Shown here piece by piece: positions 38,330 through 57,889 of a stretch of 64,000 bases of DNA. This DNA is from Armatimonadota bacterium (GTDB lineage: Bacteria > Armatimonadota > HRBIN16), in the NCBI GenBank assembly GCA_026003195.1, contig BPGU01000001.1, positions 124,001 through 188,000 of the forward strand, written 5' to 3'. The first letter of the stretch is position 1. Every line of letters starts with the position of its first letter. Position numbers and translations under genes: made by a program. The notes under the pieces are model-generated. The model saw nothing but the letters and a program-made list of their open reading frames with translations, was not told the origin of the DNA and made no database searches.

Positions 38330-39007
38330 ATGAAAATCCTGGTGGTTGATGACGAGCAGCCGCTTCTGGATGCCCTGCAGTATGCGTTAGAACGCGAAGG
38401 GTTTGAGGTGGTCACTGCTACCGATTCGGAAGACGCCCTGCAGCTTTTCGGCGAGCAGCAGCCCGACCTGGTCATTCTGGATGTGATGTTGCCCACGCGC
38501 AGCGGTTTCGAAGTGTGTCAGATTCTGCGGAAACGCAGTAGTGTGCCCATTATTATGCTCACCGCCAAGGGAGCAGAGGGCGACCGCGTAGTGGGTCTGG
38601 AAATCGGCGCGGACGACTACGTGACCAAGCCCTTCAGCATGCGCGAGCTGATAGCACGCATCAAGTCGGTGCTCAGGCGTGCATCGGCACCGGTGTCGGT
38701 GGCGGGTCCCGTGCTCAAGGCAGGTGACTTGACCCTCGACGTCAATCGATACGAAGCACGGCTAGGCGACATGCCGCTTTCTCTGTCGCCGAAAGAGTTC
38801 GAACTGCTGCGCTTCCTGATGGAACATCCCGGGCAGGTCTTTTCGCGTCAGACGCTGCTGGACCGTGTATGGGGCGAGGAGAAGTATATCGAGGAGCGCA
38901 CGGTGGACGTGCATATCCACTGGCTGCGCGAGAAAATCGAGCCCAATCCGCGCAAGCCGAAGTATCTGCTGACGGTGCGTGGTGTAGGCTACAAGTTTCG
39001 GGGATGA
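38330..39007 (+). CDS. OmpR/PhoB family response regulator
   Basis: A 225-residue regulator. The receiver domain has VDDE at residues 7-10, the phospho-acceptor in LVILDVMLP (about Asp51), LTAKG and KPFSM. The C-terminal winged helix (PLSLSPKEFELLRFLMEHPGQVFSRQ, VDVHIHWLREKIEPNP, VRGVGYKF) binds DNA. It is next to a PhoR-like kinase, 3 bases apart. It resembles phosphate-response regulators but the signal is not proven. Confidence 0.93.
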   Translation: MKILVVDDEQPLLDALQYALEREGFEVVTATDSEDALQLFGEQQPDLVILDVMLPTRSGFEVCQILRKRSSVPIIMLTAKGAEGDRVVGLEIGADDYVTKPFSMRELIARIKSVLRRASAPVSVAGPVLKAGDLTLDVNRYEARLGDMPLSLSPKEFELLRFLMEHPGQVFSRQTLLDRVWGEEKYIEERTVDVHIHWLREKIEPNPRKPKYLLTVRGVGYKFRG

Positions 39008-39010
39008 GCC

Positions 39011-40219
39011 ATGATAGAGTGGTTGCCATGGCTACTGATGCTGGCGATAGGCATCGTGGCTATGGTGCTCTTGGTGAAACAGCATCGCCTGGAGGAACAG
39101 ATAGCCCCTGTGCAGCGGCGATGCGACGAACTCGTGGAGGAACTTCACTACTACCGTTCGCTCCTTCAGTACGTGATGGATTCTCTGCAGGATGCGGTCG
39201 CGCTGGTGACGGCGGAAGGTGTGGTCGCCTCTGCCAATCCCGCTGCGACGCGCCTGCTGGGGGAGGGGCTTTTGGGGCAGTCTCTGCTGCAACGCACCCT
39301 GTGCTATGATCTCCACCTCCTACTGACCCGCTGTGTGCAAACACAGCGTCCCCAACACGCAGAGCTCAGGCTGAACCACCCTCACCCCCGCACGGTATTT
39401 GTGCGTATCCTGCCGCTACCTACCGCACCCCATGCGGCAGAAGCAACCTATCTGGTGGTATTGACGGACATCAGCGAGCTGCGACGTCTGGAGCAGATTC
39501 GGAGCGATTTCGTCGCCAACGTCTCACACGAACTGCGCACTCCGCTGGCTTCCATCCGCGCCAACGCCGAAGCCTTGCTGGACAACCCTACCGATGACCT
39601 TGCCACTCAACAGAGGTTTCTGAACACTATCGTACAGCAAACTGAACGGCTGACCCGCATGACCGAAGACTTGCTGGTGCTGGCGAAGGTGGAAGCACGT
39701 CCGATACCTATCACTCAAGAGATCCATCTGCAAGAGCTGGTGCGCTCACTGGTAGAGCAGATCCACGCACAGGCTGAAGAGGCGCAGGTACAGGTGTTGA
39801 TGGACATTCCAGAGGGCTTCATCGTCTGCGCCCAGCGTGACCAGCTGGAACAGATTCTGTGGAACCTAATGGACAACGCGATCAAGTACAACCGTCGTGG
39901 TGGGCAGGTGCGCATTCGGGCGCAAAAGACGCCAGAGGGGAGCGAAATCATCGTCGAAGATACCGGTATCGGCATCCCGCACGAGCATCTGGAACGCATC
40001 TTCGAGCGGTTCTACCGGGTGGACAAGGCGCGCAGCCGCGCCAAAGGCGGTACCGGGTTGGGGCTTTCTATCGTGAAACACCTGGTGGAAGCGCATGGAG
40101 GGCGAGTGTGGGTGGAAAGCGAATGGGGAGTGGGCAGCCGGTTCGGTGTGGTTCTGCCCGATAGCCGCGCAGAACGCGAAGGTGTGCCAAAAGGCGAAGC
40201 TGCTGGCAAATCATGGTAG
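39011..40219 (+). CDS. PhoR-like sensor histidine kinase
   Basis: A 402-residue kinase. One N-terminal transmembrane helix (WLPWLLMLAIGIVAMVLLV) is followed by a coiled segment and a PAS domain (SLQDAVALVTAEGVVASANPAATRLLG). The H-box is FVANVSHELRTPLASI. The ATPase domain has LMDNAIKYN (N box), EDTGIGIP (G1), ERFYRVDKARS (F) and GGTGLGLSIV (G2). It lacks a large extracellular sensor, like PhoR proteins that sense through partners. It is paired with the response regulator upstream. Confidence 0.93.
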   Translation: MIEWLPWLLMLAIGIVAMVLLVKQHRLEEQIAPVQRRCDELVEELHYYRSLLQYVMDSLQDAVALVTAEGVVASANPAATRLLGEGLLGQSLLQRTLCYDLHLLLTRCVQTQRPQHAELRLNHPHPRTVFVRILPLPTAPHAAEATYLVVLTDISELRRLEQIRSDFVANVSHELRTPLASIRANAEALLDNPTDDLATQQRFLNTIVQQTERLTRMTEDLLVLAKVEARPIPITQEIHLQELVRSLVEQIHAQAEEAQVQVLMDIPEGFIVCAQRDQLEQILWNLMDNAIKYNRRGGQVRIRAQKTPEGSEIIVEDTGIGIPHEHLERIFERFYRVDKARSRAKGGTGLGLSIVKHLVEAHGGRVWVESEWGVGSRFGVVLPDSRAEREGVPKGEAAGKSW

Positions 40220-48398: not shown

Positions 48399-49343
48399 AT
48401 GATAGAAGTAACCTGTCTGGGCATTCTGGTTGCCGATGTGGTCGGCAAACCGATAGACACCTACCCCGAACGCGGTCGACTGCAGCTGGTAGAGCGTATG
48501 GAACTGCACAGCGGTGGTTGCGCTGCGAACACGGGCGTATCACTGGCGAAGATTGGCATCCGGACCGCCGTCATCGGCAAGGTGGGCAACGACGGCTTTG
48601 GCGACTTTCTCGTGCAGGTTCTGCAGAAACACGGTATCGACACACGCGGCGTGAAGCGTGATGAGAAAGAAGCCACCAGCGCCACGATGGTGATGGTGCA
48701 CAGCGACGGCGAACGCTCGTTCCTGCACTACATCGGTGCGAACGCCGCCCTGCATCTGGAAGACGTAGACATGGACATCGTGCGTCAGAGCAAGGTGCTG
48801 CATGTTGCGGGTGCGCTGGTGATGCCCGGCATCGACGGCGAGCCGACGGCAGAACTGTTGCGCCGGGCGAAGGAGAGGGGCATTATCACCAGCTTCGATA
48901 CCGTGTGGAACACCAACAGTGGCTGGATGAACACCATCAGACCCTGCTTGCCGTATGTGGACTACATGATCCCCAGCATCGAAGAGGCGAAAATGCTCAC
49001 CGGCAAGGAGCACCCCGAAGACATTGCACAGGTGTTTCTGGATCATGGCGTGAAGGTAGTGGGGCTGAAGATGGGCGAGCGGGGATGCTACATCCGCACA
49101 GCGGACGCGAAAATCTCCATCCCGCGCTATCAGGTGGAGGCGGTGGATGCACTGGGCGCAGGCGATGCCTTCGCGGCAGGCTTCCTGACGGGTGTGGTCA
49201 AAGGCTGGGATCTGGAGCAGACGGGACGCTTCGCCAATGCTGTGGGTGCGCTGTGCGTCACCGCTCTCGGCGCAACGACGGGCGTGCGCTCACTGGAAGA
49301 GACCTTAGAGTTCATGCAAAAGACGCCCCTGGCGTCAGGATGA
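48399..49343 (+). CDS. PfkB-family carbohydrate kinase
   Basis: A 314-residue ribokinase-like enzyme. It has the substrate-binding GGCAANTGVSLAKIG, KVGNDGFGDFL, the anion-hole/catalytic segment VDALGAGDAFAAGFLTG with the base Asp, and VVGLKMGERGCYI. By family it phosphorylates a sugar, ribose-like compound or nucleoside; which one is not visible. GGAGGGAG lies 5 bases before the ATG. It is followed 1 base later by the CPBP protease gene. Confidence 0.92.
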   Translation: MIEVTCLGILVADVVGKPIDTYPERGRLQLVERMELHSGGCAANTGVSLAKIGIRTAVIGKVGNDGFGDFLVQVLQKHGIDTRGVKRDEKEATSATMVMVHSDGERSFLHYIGANAALHLEDVDMDIVRQSKVLHVAGALVMPGIDGEPTAELLRRAKERGIITSFDTVWNTNSGWMNTIRPCLPYVDYMIPSIEEAKMLTGKEHPEDIAQVFLDHGVKVVGLKMGERGCYIRTADAKISIPRYQVEAVDALGAGDAFAAGFLTGVVKGWDLEQTGRFANAVGALCVTALGATTGVRSLEETLEFMQKTPLASG

Positions 49344-50263: not shown

Positions 50264-53200
50264 TTACCACTGAGCCCGGCTCACCTCGCGCATCTCCTCG
50301 ATCCATACCCACCACGCCGGTTTGCTGTGGAAGTGCCCGGAGGTTTGTAATCGGGTTTTTGTGCGAGCTGGCAGGCTGGCTTTCTGGAGCCAACGCCTGG
50401 CTTCCTCCTCGCTGGCGAAGGGTCCCAGCCTCACCGACAGGAGCGGTATCGGTTTATCGCAGGACAGGGTAAATGTGCCGCTTTTTCGCCACGAGTAACC
50501 CAGGCGAGCAACCTGCAAGCCCTTCCCCGCAGGTATCAGCACGGGGAAATTATCCACCTCGATGCCTGTCAGTGGCGACGGGACACGGGGCAGGATGCGC
50601 ACATGGTGGGGATGGGTATCGTCCACCCCGGCGCAGGCTTCCAGTGCGTGCATCGCAGGTCCCTGATTGGCGCCGTTGCTCAGGTCTCCGATGCGGTACC
50701 ACATACCGTTTGGCAGGATACACGTCCCTTCGGGAATAAGCCACAGCCATCTGCGCCAGTCGATACCGCGCTGTGGGTCGGTGTAATCCATGTTCTTGTC
50801 GTAGGAGTATTTTGCCAGGTTCCAGAGCAGCTCGCCCGCGTCATCCATCTCGTCCAGCAGGAGTACGGCATGAGTGAGCCAGCCTTGCCCGTAGCCCATC
50901 GCCAGCACGGGGGCATGTCCATACCTCTGGCTGAGCTGCCGACGCAGGGTGTTGCGCGTGATAGAGGTCATCGTGGCGTCCCAGCGTGTGGGGTCATAGC
51001 CATCCAGATAGATGGAGAACCATGCCTGTACCAGCGAATCCTGCAGGCTGGGCAGTACGGAGTAGGGGCTGACTCGCCAGCAGAAGTTATTGTGGTCTCC
51101 CACTTTCAGCAGGCGGATCATTCCTGCTTGCAGACGGTCGGCGTAGGCGCGCCAGCGGGATGCCCATTCCGTTTCACCCAGCGCGTCGGCGATTTGCGCG
51201 GAGCAACGCAGTGCTACCATGCACGTGTAGGTGGCGTATGGTTCGTACATATCGGCGTTAGCGTAGTTGCGCCGAATCTTCTCAGGGTCGGTTTCACGGC
51301 TCATGCCCGGTGGGCATAAAGGCAGATGAGGTCCACCTCCCCAGCCTGTGACCTCCCCTTCGCTGAATATCACGTCACGCCCGGTGTAGTCCATGAACCA
51401 GCACACAAACTCGGCGGCGTCGCGCGTGGAGTCCCAGCGGCTTTTGCCGTACACCTGCGAGCGAGGAGCGGTCAGCCATTCTCCGGTGGGCGCGCCCAGC
51501 ATTCGCCACGCCACCCACCTGCCTACCATCGTAGCGGCATGTCCCTCCATCTCCTCGTTGCCGTCTATCTCATTCACCGCCCAGGGCAGGGAGTAGGGAC
51601 CATTGACCACAAACGCCCAGTGCGGCGGTGCCTCTTTGGGATAGCGGGTGATGTCCAGCGGTTCGTTCGGCGGACCCTGAGAAGGGTCGCGGTTGGCGCG
51701 GTAGAAGTAGAGCCACTTGTCGCAGAAGTCCACATAATTGGTGCGTCGGGCATCGTCATACGCACACCGCAGCACAAGGGTGGCGTAATGGTCGGAGCTG
51801 CGTCCGTAGGCGCCCTCCGCGTACACCCCGATGGGCACCCAGGTCCCGATGCCGCTGTAGCCGCCATACCAGGGGCAATCCTTGCCCGTCTCGCGGAAAA
51901 AGCCCGTGCCGCTTTCAAACTTCTCCATCATTTGCAGCAGATTGGCTGTCCAGATGTTGGTGAGCATATCTGCCTCGCGCCCGCCCAGAAAGCGGATACG
52001 CGCTGCATCCGTCCCCTGGGGGAAGGGGAGCAAAGCCACACGGGAGGGCAGGTCACTGTCGGAGGTGTACAGGATGCGTGTCAACTCGTCCAGGTCGGCG
52101 AGCCAGTTGGGCACGCGGTACGAGGCAAACGCGGGTTTCAGGTCGTCCGCATCTGCTTTCCACAGCCCGAAGGGTTTCAGATTCGCCTCCGGCTCTGGAG
52201 AAGCCAGCGTGATGGCGGAAACAAGGGGGCGTCCACGCACGTCAGGGTTGTCCACCACTGTGATGGTCTCTATCCTTTTGGCACGAGGGCGAACCGCCAG
52301 ATAGTAATGGGCGTGCCGGGTGTCATTGCCGGCGGGTTCTTCGCTTTCGCGCAAGCGCAGTGCCCGGCGCAGAACACGCATGTACTCGGGGCGCGAAGCG
52401 AACGGTTCGCGAACGGGCACGCTCACCGAATGGGTAGGACCGTGCGTCCATTGCGCCACGAACCACGCGGTCGCCCCCATTACCAGAGGTACCCGGTCGC
52501 TGGTGCCGTCCTCGTAGCGGATGAGCAGGTCCCCGATGCGCGTGCCTATGTATACCAGATCATCGCGCTTCTCACGCAGCTCCGGGTGCTCACCCCAGTG
52601 CGCTACCCCATAATCCCAGCCCTCATTCACCATGCCCAGCAGGTATAGTGTTTCCGCCTGTGCATACACGGGAATGGTCTCGGTATTGCCTTCCATCTGT
52701 CGGCGCGATGCTCCTCGTCGTTCGGGATGCGCCGCCAGGAAAGGGAGAGACCGGCACAACGCCATTTCTGCACCGTCATCGATGGGCAGGGCGTACAGGT
52801 CGTTTCGGTCTATGCACCTGGCGATGGGTGGTTCCTCCTGGCGGTATCCTGCGAAGGCAATCCATGCGAAACCGCCCGGACGGATGACCGGGTTATTGTC
52901 CACCACCTCCAGGTAGACCTGTCTGCCGATGAGGTCGGCGGTAATCCATTTCACCGTCATGAGGGTATTGCCTCCGGAGGTGTGCGCTCGGCGCAGGACG
53001 GCGCCGTCCGGGTGAGATCGCAGTAGCACCCAGTTGCGATCTCCATCGTTGGGGGCGTTCAGGGTACCATCCCAACCCGCAATCAGAAACCGCTGGATGG
53101 GAGCGCGGATCGTGAAAACCGGTGAGCGCAGCACCCCTGTGTTGCTCTCGCCTGCTTCCAGGGAGTTCACCACGTAGCCCGGCTCTATCCCCGGCGGCGA

Positions 53201-53800: not shown

Positions 53801-55255
53801 ATGAGAAAAGCATCCTCACGCGTCTCCACCGGCATTGCCGGTCTGGATGAGGTGCTGGGAGGAGGTCTCATTCCCCAGCGAGCGTACCTGCTCAGGGGGG
53901 CACCCGGTACAGGCAAGACACTCGTCGGACTGCATTTCCTGGTAGATGGAGCGCGGCGGGAGAACCCCCTGTTCATTGCGCTGGATGAGCCAGAGCATAA
54001 GGTGCGTCAGAATGCTGCCAGCGTCGGTCTGAACCTGCGAGGAGTGTGCTTCCTGGACCTTACTCCTTCCTCTGAGTTCTTTGCACAGGCGCAAACGTAC
54101 GACCTGTTCGCGCCGGCGGAGGTAGAACGTGCGCCGATGACCCAGATGCTGGTGGAACGCATACGTGCGCTGAAGCCGCGGCGGGTTTTCGTGGATTCGA
54201 TGACGCATTTCCGCTATTTTGCCCCCAACGAGTTCGAGTATCGCAAACAGGTGTTGTCGTTTTTGCGCTTCCTGATGGAACAGAGGGCAACCGTGATGTT
54301 CACCTCCGAAAGCAGCTCCATCGCTCCTGATGACGACCTGCAATCGCTCAGCGATGGGGTCATCCATCTGGAAATGGACGGTGGCAACAGGCGATTGCAG
54401 GTAACCAAGATGCGCGGTTCTTCGTTCCGTGCCGGTGTACACGCGCTGCGAATCAACGGGCAGGGCGTGCAGGTGTATCCACAGATTCTGCCTGATTCTG
54501 GACGGTTTACTGCCGTGCATGAACAGGTGTCGTCCGGTATTCCAGATCTGGACCACATGCTGCACGGTGGTCTGGAACGCGGCACCATCGCGCTGATTAC
54601 CGGGGCGAGCGGAGTGGGCAAAACCACACTGGGAATGCAGTTTATGAAAGAAGCAGCAGCGCGGGGTGAGCGATCGGTCGTGTACTCCTTCGAGGAGGAG
54701 TTACCGATCGTTCTGAGACGATGCCATTCGGTGGGTATCCCCGCTGCGTCGATGATGGAACATGGCACGCTCTCACTGGTAAAGATAGAGCCTTTGCAGC
54801 ACTCAGCCACCGAGTTCGCCTACATAGTACGCGAGGAGGTGGAACAGCGTGGCGCGCGTATCGTGATGATAGACAGTGTGGCGGGCTACCGCCTGTCTCT
54901 GCAGGGGGAAGACCTCGTAGGGCAGCTGCACGCGCTGTGTAAATGGCTGCAGAGTCGTGGAGTGGTCACTTTGCTGGTGAACGAAACACATACGGTATCG
55001 GGTCCCCTGTTGATTAGCGAGGTGGGGCTGAGTTATCTGGCGGACACTGTGTTGTTCCTGCGTTACGCAGAGAAGTACACCTCGCAGAGGGCGGAATTGA
55101 CGCGGGTCATTGGCGTGCTGAAAAAGCGGTTAAGCGCTTTTGATCACACCCTGCGCGAGTTTCGAATCACCTCGGAAGGTGTTTGGATAGGACCGCCCAT
55201 TCCCCAGCTACGCAACATCGTCGCGGACACACCAGTCTGGGAAGAGGAAGCATGA
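53801..55255 (+). CDS. KaiC-like double-domain ATPase
   Basis: A 484-residue RecA-superfamily ATPase with two KaiC domains. The first has VSTGIAGLDEVLGGGL, Walker A GAPGTGKT (33-40) and Walker B-like RVFVDSMTHFR. The second has SSGIPDLDHMLHGGLERG, Walker A GASGVGKTT, YSFEEELP (the Glu pair typical of KaiC) and Walker B RIVMIDSVAGY. No KaiA- or KaiB-like gene is adjacent. It overlaps the histidine kinase gene by 4 bases. Non-cyanobacterial KaiC-kinase sets are known, but whether this one is a timer or another switch cannot be told. Confidence 0.9.
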   Translation: MRKASSRVSTGIAGLDEVLGGGLIPQRAYLLRGAPGTGKTLVGLHFLVDGARRENPLFIALDEPEHKVRQNAASVGLNLRGVCFLDLTPSSEFFAQAQTYDLFAPAEVERAPMTQMLVERIRALKPRRVFVDSMTHFRYFAPNEFEYRKQVLSFLRFLMEQRATVMFTSESSSIAPDDDLQSLSDGVIHLEMDGGNRRLQVTKMRGSSFRAGVHALRINGQGVQVYPQILPDSGRFTAVHEQVSSGIPDLDHMLHGGLERGTIALITGASGVGKTTLGMQFMKEAAARGERSVVYSFEEELPIVLRRCHSVGIPAASMMEHGTLSLVKIEPLQHSATEFAYIVREEVEQRGARIVMIDSVAGYRLSLQGEDLVGQLHALCKWLQSRGVVTLLVNETHTVSGPLLISEVGLSYLADTVLFLRYAEKYTSQRAELTRVIGVLKKRLSAFDHTLREFRITSEGVWIGPPIPQLRNIVADTPVWEEEA

Positions 55256-56334
55256 ACCGTCTGCTGCTGATGCTGGCTAGCAAACCCAACCTGTGCCTGC
55301 TGGAAGAGGCTCTGGCAGGGCGTTACACGGTCTCGTTTTTTGATAAGACCTGCCAGCAGTATGCTTTGCGGACGTGCGATCTGATTATCGTAGACGGCTT
55401 GATGCTGGAGCAACACACAGACTCTATCATCGCCGCCAGAGAAGAATCTCTGCCTGTGTTTTTACCTGTTCTACTGGTCACTTCGCGACAGAACGTTGGT
55501 TTAGCCACACGCAGCCTGTGGAAGTCCGTCGATGAAGTCATCCTGACGCCGATTGAGCGCGTGGAGCTGCAGGCGCGGGTAGAGGTGATGCTGCGAGCCC
55601 GACGCCTATCGGCGGAACTCTACCAGCGCAACCAGGATTTGGAGGCGTTCGTCCATGCGGTCACCCACGAGCTGCGCGCGCCGTTACGAGCAATGGCAGG
55701 TTTTGCGGAAGCGATTGCGGAGGACGCGAATCTACCGCAAACCGGTGAGGTTGCTACGTATCTGCAGCGCATCATTCGGGCTTCCCAAGACATGAAGCGC
55801 ATCCTGGATTCTTTGCTCACCTTCGCGCGACTGGGGCGCGAGGTGCAGGTGCAAAAAGTATGGCTCCAGCCGCTGGTGGAAAGCTGCTTGCGCGAATTAG
55901 AGAAGGAAATTGCCAGTACAATGGCTCAAGTAGAATGTGAAATAGAGTGTCACACGGTGGAATCCGACCCGCTCCTTTTGAAAATCGTGATGGGAAACCT
56001 GATTTCCAACGCGCTGAAGTTTCGATACAAAGAGCGGAGACCTCAGGTTCGGATCCGTGCCTACCAGCGTGGTGCATTCTGTCGGATTGAAGTGCAGGAT
56101 AACGGCATCGGCATCTCCTCGGAGGACGTGAATCGGATATTCACTCCGTTCACGCGCCTGCACGGTGTGGAAGAGTATGCCGGAGTCGGACTGGGGCTGA
56201 GTATCGTCAGAAAAGCCGTCACCTTAATGGGAGGGCGTTACGGAGCGGTATCCGCCGTCCACGAAGGCAGTACATTCTGGGTGGAGCTGCCTATAGCAGG
56301 TGGTGAAGAGAATGAGGGTGCTACTGGTAGATGA
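55252..56334 (+). CDS. Histidine kinase with receiver-like N-terminus, KaiC-linked
   Basis: A 360-residue soluble kinase. Residues 1-117 have a receiver-like fold (CDLIIVDGLMLEQH, LPVLLVTSRQNV, DEVILTPIERVELQ) with a degenerate active site. The H-box FVHAVTHELRAPLRAMAGFAE and ATPase motifs NLISNALKF, QDNGIGISSEDV and GVGLGLSIVRK follow. This is the bacteriophytochrome-type family of cytoplasmic kinases. ATGA overlap with the KaiC-like stop indicates coupled synthesis. The longer open frame upstream is rejected because it overlaps the ATPase gene heavily. Confidence 0.9.
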   Translation: MNRLLLMLASKPNLCLLEEALAGRYTVSFFDKTCQQYALRTCDLIIVDGLMLEQHTDSIIAAREESLPVFLPVLLVTSRQNVGLATRSLWKSVDEVILTPIERVELQARVEVMLRARRLSAELYQRNQDLEAFVHAVTHELRAPLRAMAGFAEAIAEDANLPQTGEVATYLQRIIRASQDMKRILDSLLTFARLGREVQVQKVWLQPLVESCLRELEKEIASTMAQVECEIECHTVESDPLLLKIVMGNLISNALKFRYKERRPQVRIRAYQRGAFCRIEVQDNGIGISSEDVNRIFTPFTRLHGVEEYAGVGLGLSIVRKAVTLMGGRYGAVSAVHEGSTFWVELPIAGGEENEGATGR

Positions 56335-57889
56335 TAATCCCAACGACCGGGAGCTGATCAAGCGACAGATCCGCAAGGCGATAGAGGACATCCAGTTCAT
56401 AGAGGCAGCGCGTTATGATGACTTCACCGAGGCGTTGCAGCAGGGCGACTTTGACATCGTATTGACGGACTATCTGCTGCACTGGTCGGATGGTCTGGCG
56501 GTACTGCAAGCGGTCAAATTGCACTATCCCCATACGCCGGTGATTATGGTCACCGATTCAGGCAGTGAGGAGATTGCCGCACGCGGGATGCGCGAGGGGC
56601 TCAGTGATTACGTGCTCAAGGGGCATCTGGCACGTCTGCCCTCTGCGATGAAGGAGGCTATCGAGCGCGAGCAGCTGAACCGTGAATACGCACGTGCGCT
56701 CGAAGAGTTGCAGCAGTCGCACCACGCGCTGCAGGAGGCAATGCAACAGCTCCAGCAGACACAACAACAGGTGATTCAGCAGCAACGCCTGCGTGCGCTG
56801 GGCGAAATGGCAAGCGGTATCGCGCACGATTTCAATAATGCGCTGACGCCTATCCTGGGGTTGACCGAGTTGCTTCTGGACGACCCCAAAGTGACCGCCG
56901 ACCCTCAGGTGAAGCGTTATCTGGAGATGATACGCACCGCCGCGCAGGATGCTGCGCAGACTGTTAGCCGACTGCGCGAGTTTTACCGACCACGCGGGCG
57001 TGCGGAACTGCGTCAGCCGCTGGATGTGAACACCATTGTGGAGGAGGTGGTGCAGCTCACCGCGCCGCGCTGGCGGGAGCAGGCAGAGGCGAAAGGCGTC
57101 TTTATTCGGGTACATACCGACCTGCAGCCGGTGCCGCTCCTCCTTGCCAACGGTAGCGAGCTGCGCGAGGTGTTGCAGAACCTGATTTTCAACGCGGTAG
57201 ACGCTATGCCCTGCGGAGGCGACATCACTCTGCGCACCTGGACTGCAGGCAGCTCCGGTGCGGACTGGGTGGTGATAGAGGTGCAGGATAACGGTGTCGG
57301 TATGGATGAGGAGACTCGCGTGCGCTGTTTTGAGCCGTTCTTCAGCACGAAGGGCGAGCAGGGCTCGGGATTGGGGCTGGCGGTCGTGTACGGTATCGTG
57401 CAACGGCATGAGGGCAAGATAGAGATAGACAGTAAGGTGGGCGAAGGTACCACGGTGCGTGTTTTTCTGCCCGTTGTCTCCGCAGAAACCCGTGTCACTA
57501 CTGAAGGAGAAGACCCCGCTCCCCTGCGTCCTCTGCGCGTTTTGCTGGTGGAAGACAAACCGCTGGTGCGCGAGGTGCTTCGGGAACACCTGCTGCGACA
57601 GGGGCACACGGTGGAGACAGCCTCGGACGGGCAGCGGGGACTGCAGAAGTTCCTGGCGTCACGTTACGACCTCGTGATTACCGACCTGGCGATGCCGGCG
57701 ATGAGCGGCGAGCAGCTTGCAATGGAAATCAAGAAAATCGCCCCCAATAAACCCATCATCCTGCTGACTGGTTTCGGCGACCCACGCCTGGCACAGAATG
57801 CCTACTCTGAACTGGTAGACTGTGTGCTGATAAAGCCGGTAACGCTTTTCGCCCTACGCCAGGCGATTGCGAAGGTGACGGCAGAATAG
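56312..57889 (+). CDS. Hybrid histidine kinase with two receiver domains
   Basis: A 525-residue protein, receiver-kinase-receiver. The N-terminal receiver has LLVDDNPND and the phospho-Asp in IVLTDYLL. A coiled coil (LQQSHHALQEAMQQLQQTQQQ) leads to the H-box GEMASGIAHDFNNALTPI and the ATPase motifs NLIFNAVDAMP, QDNGVGMDEET and GSGLGLAVV. The C-terminal receiver has LLVEDKPLV, LVITDLAMP and LIKPV. The ATG is preferred over GTG four codons earlier. It is the third gene of the kaiC-like operon. The phospho-output is not obvious because neither receiver has a DNA-binding domain. Confidence 0.9.
   Translation: MRVLLVDDNPNDRELIKRQIRKAIEDIQFIEAARYDDFTEALQQGDFDIVLTDYLLHWSDGLAVLQAVKLHYPHTPVIMVTDSGSEEIAARGMREGLSDYVLKGHLARLPSAMKEAIEREQLNREYARALEELQQSHHALQEAMQQLQQTQQQVIQQQRLRALGEMASGIAHDFNNALTPILGLTELLLDDPKVTADPQVKRYLEMIRTAAQDAAQTVSRLREFYRPRGRAELRQPLDVNTIVEEVVQLTAPRWREQAEAKGVFIRVHTDLQPVPLLLANGSELREVLQNLIFNAVDAMPCGGDITLRTWTAGSSGADWVVIEVQDNGVGMDEETRVRCFEPFFSTKGEQGSGLGLAVVYGIVQRHEGKIEIDSKVGEGTTVRVFLPVVSAETRVTTEGEDPAPLRPLRVLLVEDKPLVREVLREHLLRQGHTVETASDGQRGLQKFLASRYDLVITDLAMPAMSGEQLAMEIKKIAPNKPIILLTGFGDPRLAQNAYSELVDCVLIKPVTLFALRQAIAKVTAE

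Follow-up and report, generated by a model that had tools for sequence, protein, structure and literature searches.

A two-domain KaiC coupled to histidine kinases is found in the KaiABC-SasA/CikA system of S. elongatus. In that system the N-terminal domain of SasA is KaiB-like, CikA employs a pseudo-receiver (PMC12632262) that binds KaiB, and KaiC belongs to the clock clade and carries a Ser-Thr site. A different arrangement was reported in 2011 for Ramlibacter, where kaiC is systematically followed by a cotranscribed kinase with a receiver-like N-terminal domain, in the absence of kaiB (PMC3164672). The same paper proposed the receiver-like N-terminus as a KaiC-interacting module, reported SY-type sites, including one in a haloarchaeal KaiC, and put forward an hourglass hypothesis for the Ramlibacter KaiC. 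The R. tataouinensis pair Rta_04330/04340 and its relatives (the ‘dark-blue’ kaiC context, kaiC/Nt_HK) combine a double-domain KaiC, a site of the SY/TY type and a kinase encoded next to it (PMC3164672). In addition, KaiC-like ATPases were proposed to be archaeal signal-transduction hubs by Makarova, Galperin and Koonin in 2017, as cited in PMC5847659.

The locus described here lies at positions 53801–57889 (+ strand) of the window, i.e. the 64,000-nt stretch of DNA from an Armatimonadota bacterium that was analysed, and comprises three real open reading frames. The first (53801..55255, +) codes for a KaiC-like ATPase of 484 aa with two PF06745 matches (E=2.7e-74). The second (55252..56334, +) codes for a cytoplasmic (soluble) histidine kinase of 360 aa, named HK1, in which Pfam recognizes HisKA and HATPase_c; its best start, the ATG at 55252, shares 4 nt (ATGA) with the end of kaiC. 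The third (56312..57889, +) codes for HK2, a hybrid kinase of 525 aa with the order REC1-HisKA-HATPase_c-REC2, supported by Pfam and by same-genus orthologues. It starts at the ATG at 56312 or at a GTG at 56300, and overlaps HK1 by ∼23 nt. The gene purE lies directly 3′ of HK2, and a scan for promoters and terminators gave no signal above chance. The original prediction, made from the sequence alone, that the three genes are coupled was thus borne out. Elsewhere in the window (38330–40219), a separate receiver-containing gene (225 aa) is followed by that of a histidine kinase (402 aa) whose kinase core shares 36% identity with that of HK1; these two are probably an ordinary two-component pair.

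The KaiC-like ATPase contains two RecA-fold domains, CI (residues ∼8–228) and CII (∼245–463), and clock KaiC structures align across its full length (1.3e-52 to 4e-39). The Walker motifs, E298/E299 (E318/E319 in S. elongatus KaiC) and the Arg/Lys sites are all retained. The alignment with the S. elongatus protein placed Ser411-Tyr412 (55031..55036, +) at the position of Ser431-Thr432, so that, of the two phosphosites whose equivalents had been put forward for testing, the serine is conserved while the threonine is replaced by tyrosine (SY type). Across the organism's genome (4.58 Mb; completeness rated at 100%), neither KaiA (PF07688) nor KaiB (PF07689) gave any match, which extends to the whole genome the earlier remark that no kaiA or kaiB is nearby. 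In phylogenetic trees, strongly supported branches separated the window KaiC from S. elongatus KaiC and 8zn5, leaving it well outside the clock clade. Membership in a KaiABC clock was therefore rejected, given the lack of KaiA and KaiB, the different KaiC clade, the SY site, and the lack of a KaiB-like domain at the N-terminus of the kinase. The same genome contains a second, single-domain KaiC-like gene (G000:C3:836854-837540; L072:6840-7553), located 4 bp upstream of a ParB-like gene and with no linked kinases.

The N-terminal domain of HK1 (residues ∼1–125; 55252..55626, +) showed no PF00072 match and is not named by Pfam; HK1 has no sensor domain besides it. A profile made from 17 relatives nevertheless matched the receiver (REC) profile in hhalign with E=2.4e-13 and, in the PDB, matched best the receiver of PleD (1.4e-18). 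An AlphaFold2 model of the domain (pLDDT 88) adopted a (beta-alpha)5 fold with REC topology, its helix 5 still continuing where the modelled segment stops, in the direction of HisKA. The residue at the REC phospho-acceptor position, Asp48 (55393..55395, +), is invariant in the 17 aligned domains (alignment A5); the acidic pair and the catalytic Lys are not retained in them. A REC fold that keeps the Asp and has lost the acidic pair and the Lys identifies the N-terminus of HK1 as a pseudo-receiver (PsR), in line with the degenerate receiver-like N-terminus originally predicted. A KaiB/SasA-like domain, to which the 2011 paper alluded, was considered and rejected: all 60 listed PDB profile matches were receivers or receiver-bearing proteins, and the 50 best Foldseek matches to PDB structures were almost all of the same kind.

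HK2 is a hybrid histidine kinase with HisKA, HATPase_c and REC domains in one chain. Both of its receivers, REC1 (56312..56671, +) and REC2 (57527..57886, +; residues 414–523 of the 529-aa reading frame), match PF00072 and appear intact, REC1 showing the DD, D, T and K motifs. No output domain follows REC2, as had been noticed at the outset. REC1 is a candidate phosphate acceptor for HK1. As to a partner for HK2, the HPt domains of the same genome sit in reading frames of 775–929 aa and offered no obvious candidate. Orthologues of HK2 (74–88% identical) adjoin HK1 in five other genomes of the genus.

Inspection of ten same-genus genomes found HK1 and HK2 to be both present in six and both absent from four, always at a single locus. 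In five of the six kinase-bearing genomes kaiC is intact; in the sixth, the contig ends too soon to show it, HK1 beginning at base 19. The order KaiC-HK1-HK2 is conserved within the genus, more than expected by chance. The genomes lacking the operon retain its flanks at the same site, with purE/selD on one side and the genes at 48399 and 49345 on the other; in two, G002 and G007, the gene at 50264 is kept as well. Genome G007 is only 77% complete, yet its contig spans the empty site. The operon in the window is hence a co-inherited block, its kinases being present all-or-none at one locus of the genus.

A strong KaiC match was obtained in 59 of the 291 genomes of the window's phylum. Neighbourhoods were surveyed by profile at the KaiC loci of these 59 genomes, at named loci and in plasmid records; outside the phylum the search covered at least 13 loci, and the breadth seen there rests on these and on the plasmid records. 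Two KaiC trees were built, one of 105 rows and another of 60 rows with bootstraps. The KaiC proteins linked to a PsR formed one clade of 35 rows (support 100/99) spanning the window's phylum, Cyanobacteria, haloarchaea, Proteobacteria and Myxococcota. The original prediction would have been contradicted by homologues of the ATPase that always occur without the kinases; the opposite was found, since a PsR protein lies within 3 kb of 32 of the 35 KaiC rows inside the clade, versus none of the 68 outside it (Fisher p=1.5e-23, a value that ignores relatedness). The profiles were built from the partners found in the clade, so that other types of pseudo-receiver outside it could escape detection. 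Tyrosine at the Thr432 position followed the same division (35/35 inside, 0/67 outside). The members of the clade with no PsR within 3 kb were L043 and two haloarchaeal paralogues, while L078_10498 was tagged as linked in the tree solely through its proximity to the partner of another KaiC. Most partner genes lie 3′ of kaiC on the same strand, many with a 4-nt overlap. Among plasmids, 24 records had a PsR match, and in 19 of them a KaiC lay within ∼2.5 kb (one being a KaiC remnant); a match in Rhizobium was discarded as an ordinary REC-HD protein.

Two subclades were resolved. PsRA (100/99) includes the window's genus, two other genomes of the phylum, Lyngbya, Phormidesmis, Acaryochloris and haloarchaea, while PsRB (100/100) includes Proteobacteria, Polyangiaceae and other genomes of the window's phylum. 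The nesting of the window's genus near a cyanobacterial KaiC, together with the patchy distribution in its own phylum, suggests horizontal transfer. PsRB likewise has a receiver fold (REC match, E=1.5e-6); a Glu that follows strand 3, close to the position of the phospho-Asp, is invariant in it. A direct profile match between PsRA and PsRB is weak (E=0.012), though both are REC folds.

The locus shares several features with the kaiC/Nt_HK pair: a histidine kinase gene straight after kaiC (ATGA), kaiB absent genome-wide, and an SY site (SY, TY or SF in the set of PMC3164672). Its HK1 is of the PsRA subtype, as in cyanobacteria and haloarchaea, whereas Proteobacteria have PsRB, and it may differ in this from the Ramlibacter kinase; it does differ in the presence of a third gene, that of the REC-HK-REC hybrid kinase. 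Since the pair was described in 2011 (PMC3164672), the locus is a variant of it and not a new clock, which reduces the novelty originally implied for a KaiC-kinase operon outside cyanobacteria. The analysis adds that the PsRA branch is joined to the kaiC/Nt-HK kind through one KaiC clade, both N-terminal domains being receiver folds, together with the strict co-segregation of Tyr432, the exchange of effectors described below, the addition of HK2 as a third gene and the all-or-none occurrence of the kinases in the genus. As for the archaeal hub proposal, to the extent that it is related in the citing paper, its haloarchaeal members tied to kinases and HalX regulators are close relatives of the window's KaiC, whereas the PsR link and the Tyr432 mark derive from the present analysis.

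What lies behind the PsR varies. Behind PsRB it is mostly a histidine kinase. At two KaiC-linked loci it is a SpoIIE phosphatase (L134:5993-7222 and L137:2440-3660, both −) and, at another, an anti-sigma-type ATPase domain, HATPase_c_2 (L136:4491-5516, −). As the effector changes and the PsR stays beside KaiC, the PsR is the constant part of the module; the SpoIIE and HATPase_c_2 proteins may link KaiC to sigma-factor partner switching. PsR kinases of relatives bear PAS or GAF sensor domains. The third position, occupied by HK2 in the window, is taken in other branches by either a PAS kinase or a free-standing receiver, and in several haloarchaea KaiC is followed by two PsR kinases in a row. 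A small receiver of a single domain separates KaiC from the PsR kinase in two cyanobacteria and in G216, a genome of the window's phylum; the small receivers at L080:8012-8383, L081:7489-7863 and L130:8160-8531 have a common GFDRxIW motif. Four Haladaptatus plasmid loci (L121, L122, L123 and L126) contain a PsR-PAS kinase beside a response regulator, of the HalX or another type, and lack an adjacent KaiC, indicating that the PsR can persist without a linked KaiC. On Haloplanus plasmids, apparently intact PsR kinases lie beside a kaiC gene split across two frames (L124:3420-4912) or mere KaiC remnants (L127:3726-4878).

These observations are best accommodated, with a little better than even confidence, by a signalling module independent of KaiA and KaiB in which the PsR of HK1 reads KaiC and the signal is relayed through HK1 and probably HK2. 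The KaiC-like ATPase, probably a hexamer, would change state with ATP/ADP and perhaps with phosphorylation of Ser411. The PsR would be the KaiC docking domain and would switch the kinase activity of HK1, whose phosphate would go to a receiver, the likeliest being REC1 of HK2 in the same operon; the kinase core and REC2 of HK2 could then act on an unlinked HPt protein or regulator. KaiC is inherited with a kinase bearing a non-working receiver, and so probably signals straight via the PsR. The PsR adjacency (32/35) and the joint gain or loss of the kinases in the genus (six versus four genomes) support KaiC and the kinases well as one pathway; of the KaiC-gated phosphorelay originally predicted, the co-inherited unit is thus observed, whereas gating and HK1-to-HK2 transfer are inferred.

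The direction could be the reverse, PsR-HK1 (with HK2) acting as an input that sets the ATPase or phosphorylation of KaiC, which would be the output hub. The PAS and GAF domains in relatives' kinases and the hub proposal cited in PMC5847659 point this way. This is unlikely, however, given that HK1 lacks any such sensor, that the PsR is without the residues for ordinary phosphotransfer, and that the swapped part in relatives is an output enzyme (SpoIIE, HATPase_c_2), which favours KaiC acting upstream of PsR proteins. It is less probable still that the locus is a true timer, hourglass or oscillator, working without KaiB: the retained Ser431 and CII catalytic Glu residues are compatible with one, and the hourglass hypothesis for Ramlibacter (PMC3164672) is a precedent, but the absence of kaiA and kaiB, the Thr432-to-Tyr change and the position well outside the clock clade argue against it. 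Finally, that HK1 and HK2 are independent signalling genes merely sharing a promoter with kaiC is very improbable, since, common as kinases are near KaiC-like genes in general, this specific PsR partner occurs only with a single KaiC clade, in Bacteria and Archaea alike, and the genes overlap (ATGA) and come and go as a block.

Beyond the window, the module reading can be generalized more tentatively, at somewhat less than even confidence: the Tyr432 KaiC subfamily may dispense with KaiB in bacteria and haloarchaea alike, docking a PsR adaptor that connects it to interchangeable outputs (a histidine kinase, a SpoIIE phosphatase or an ATPase of the anti-sigma type); the window's version has three genes, with a hybrid kinase added. 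Relatives of KaiC occur far more widely than KaiB does. If KaiC does contact the PsR directly, a large KaiC clade spanning two domains of life would have a concrete interface open to testing, and there would be a natural way to wire KaiC state sensing to kinases or sigma-factor control.

The survey of the phylum also detected a double KaiC ATPase with an apparent C-terminal domain resembling ABC solute-binding proteins (L044:6286-8889, +; SBP_bac_8, 1.9e-20; SBP_bac_1, 3.1e-20). Probable fusions of the same kind are present at L047:6193-8832, at L057:4741-7377 (−) and in ∼18 more reading frames (∼840–940 aa) of the same phylum, Pfam having been run on L044 alone and the others being assigned by length and tree position.
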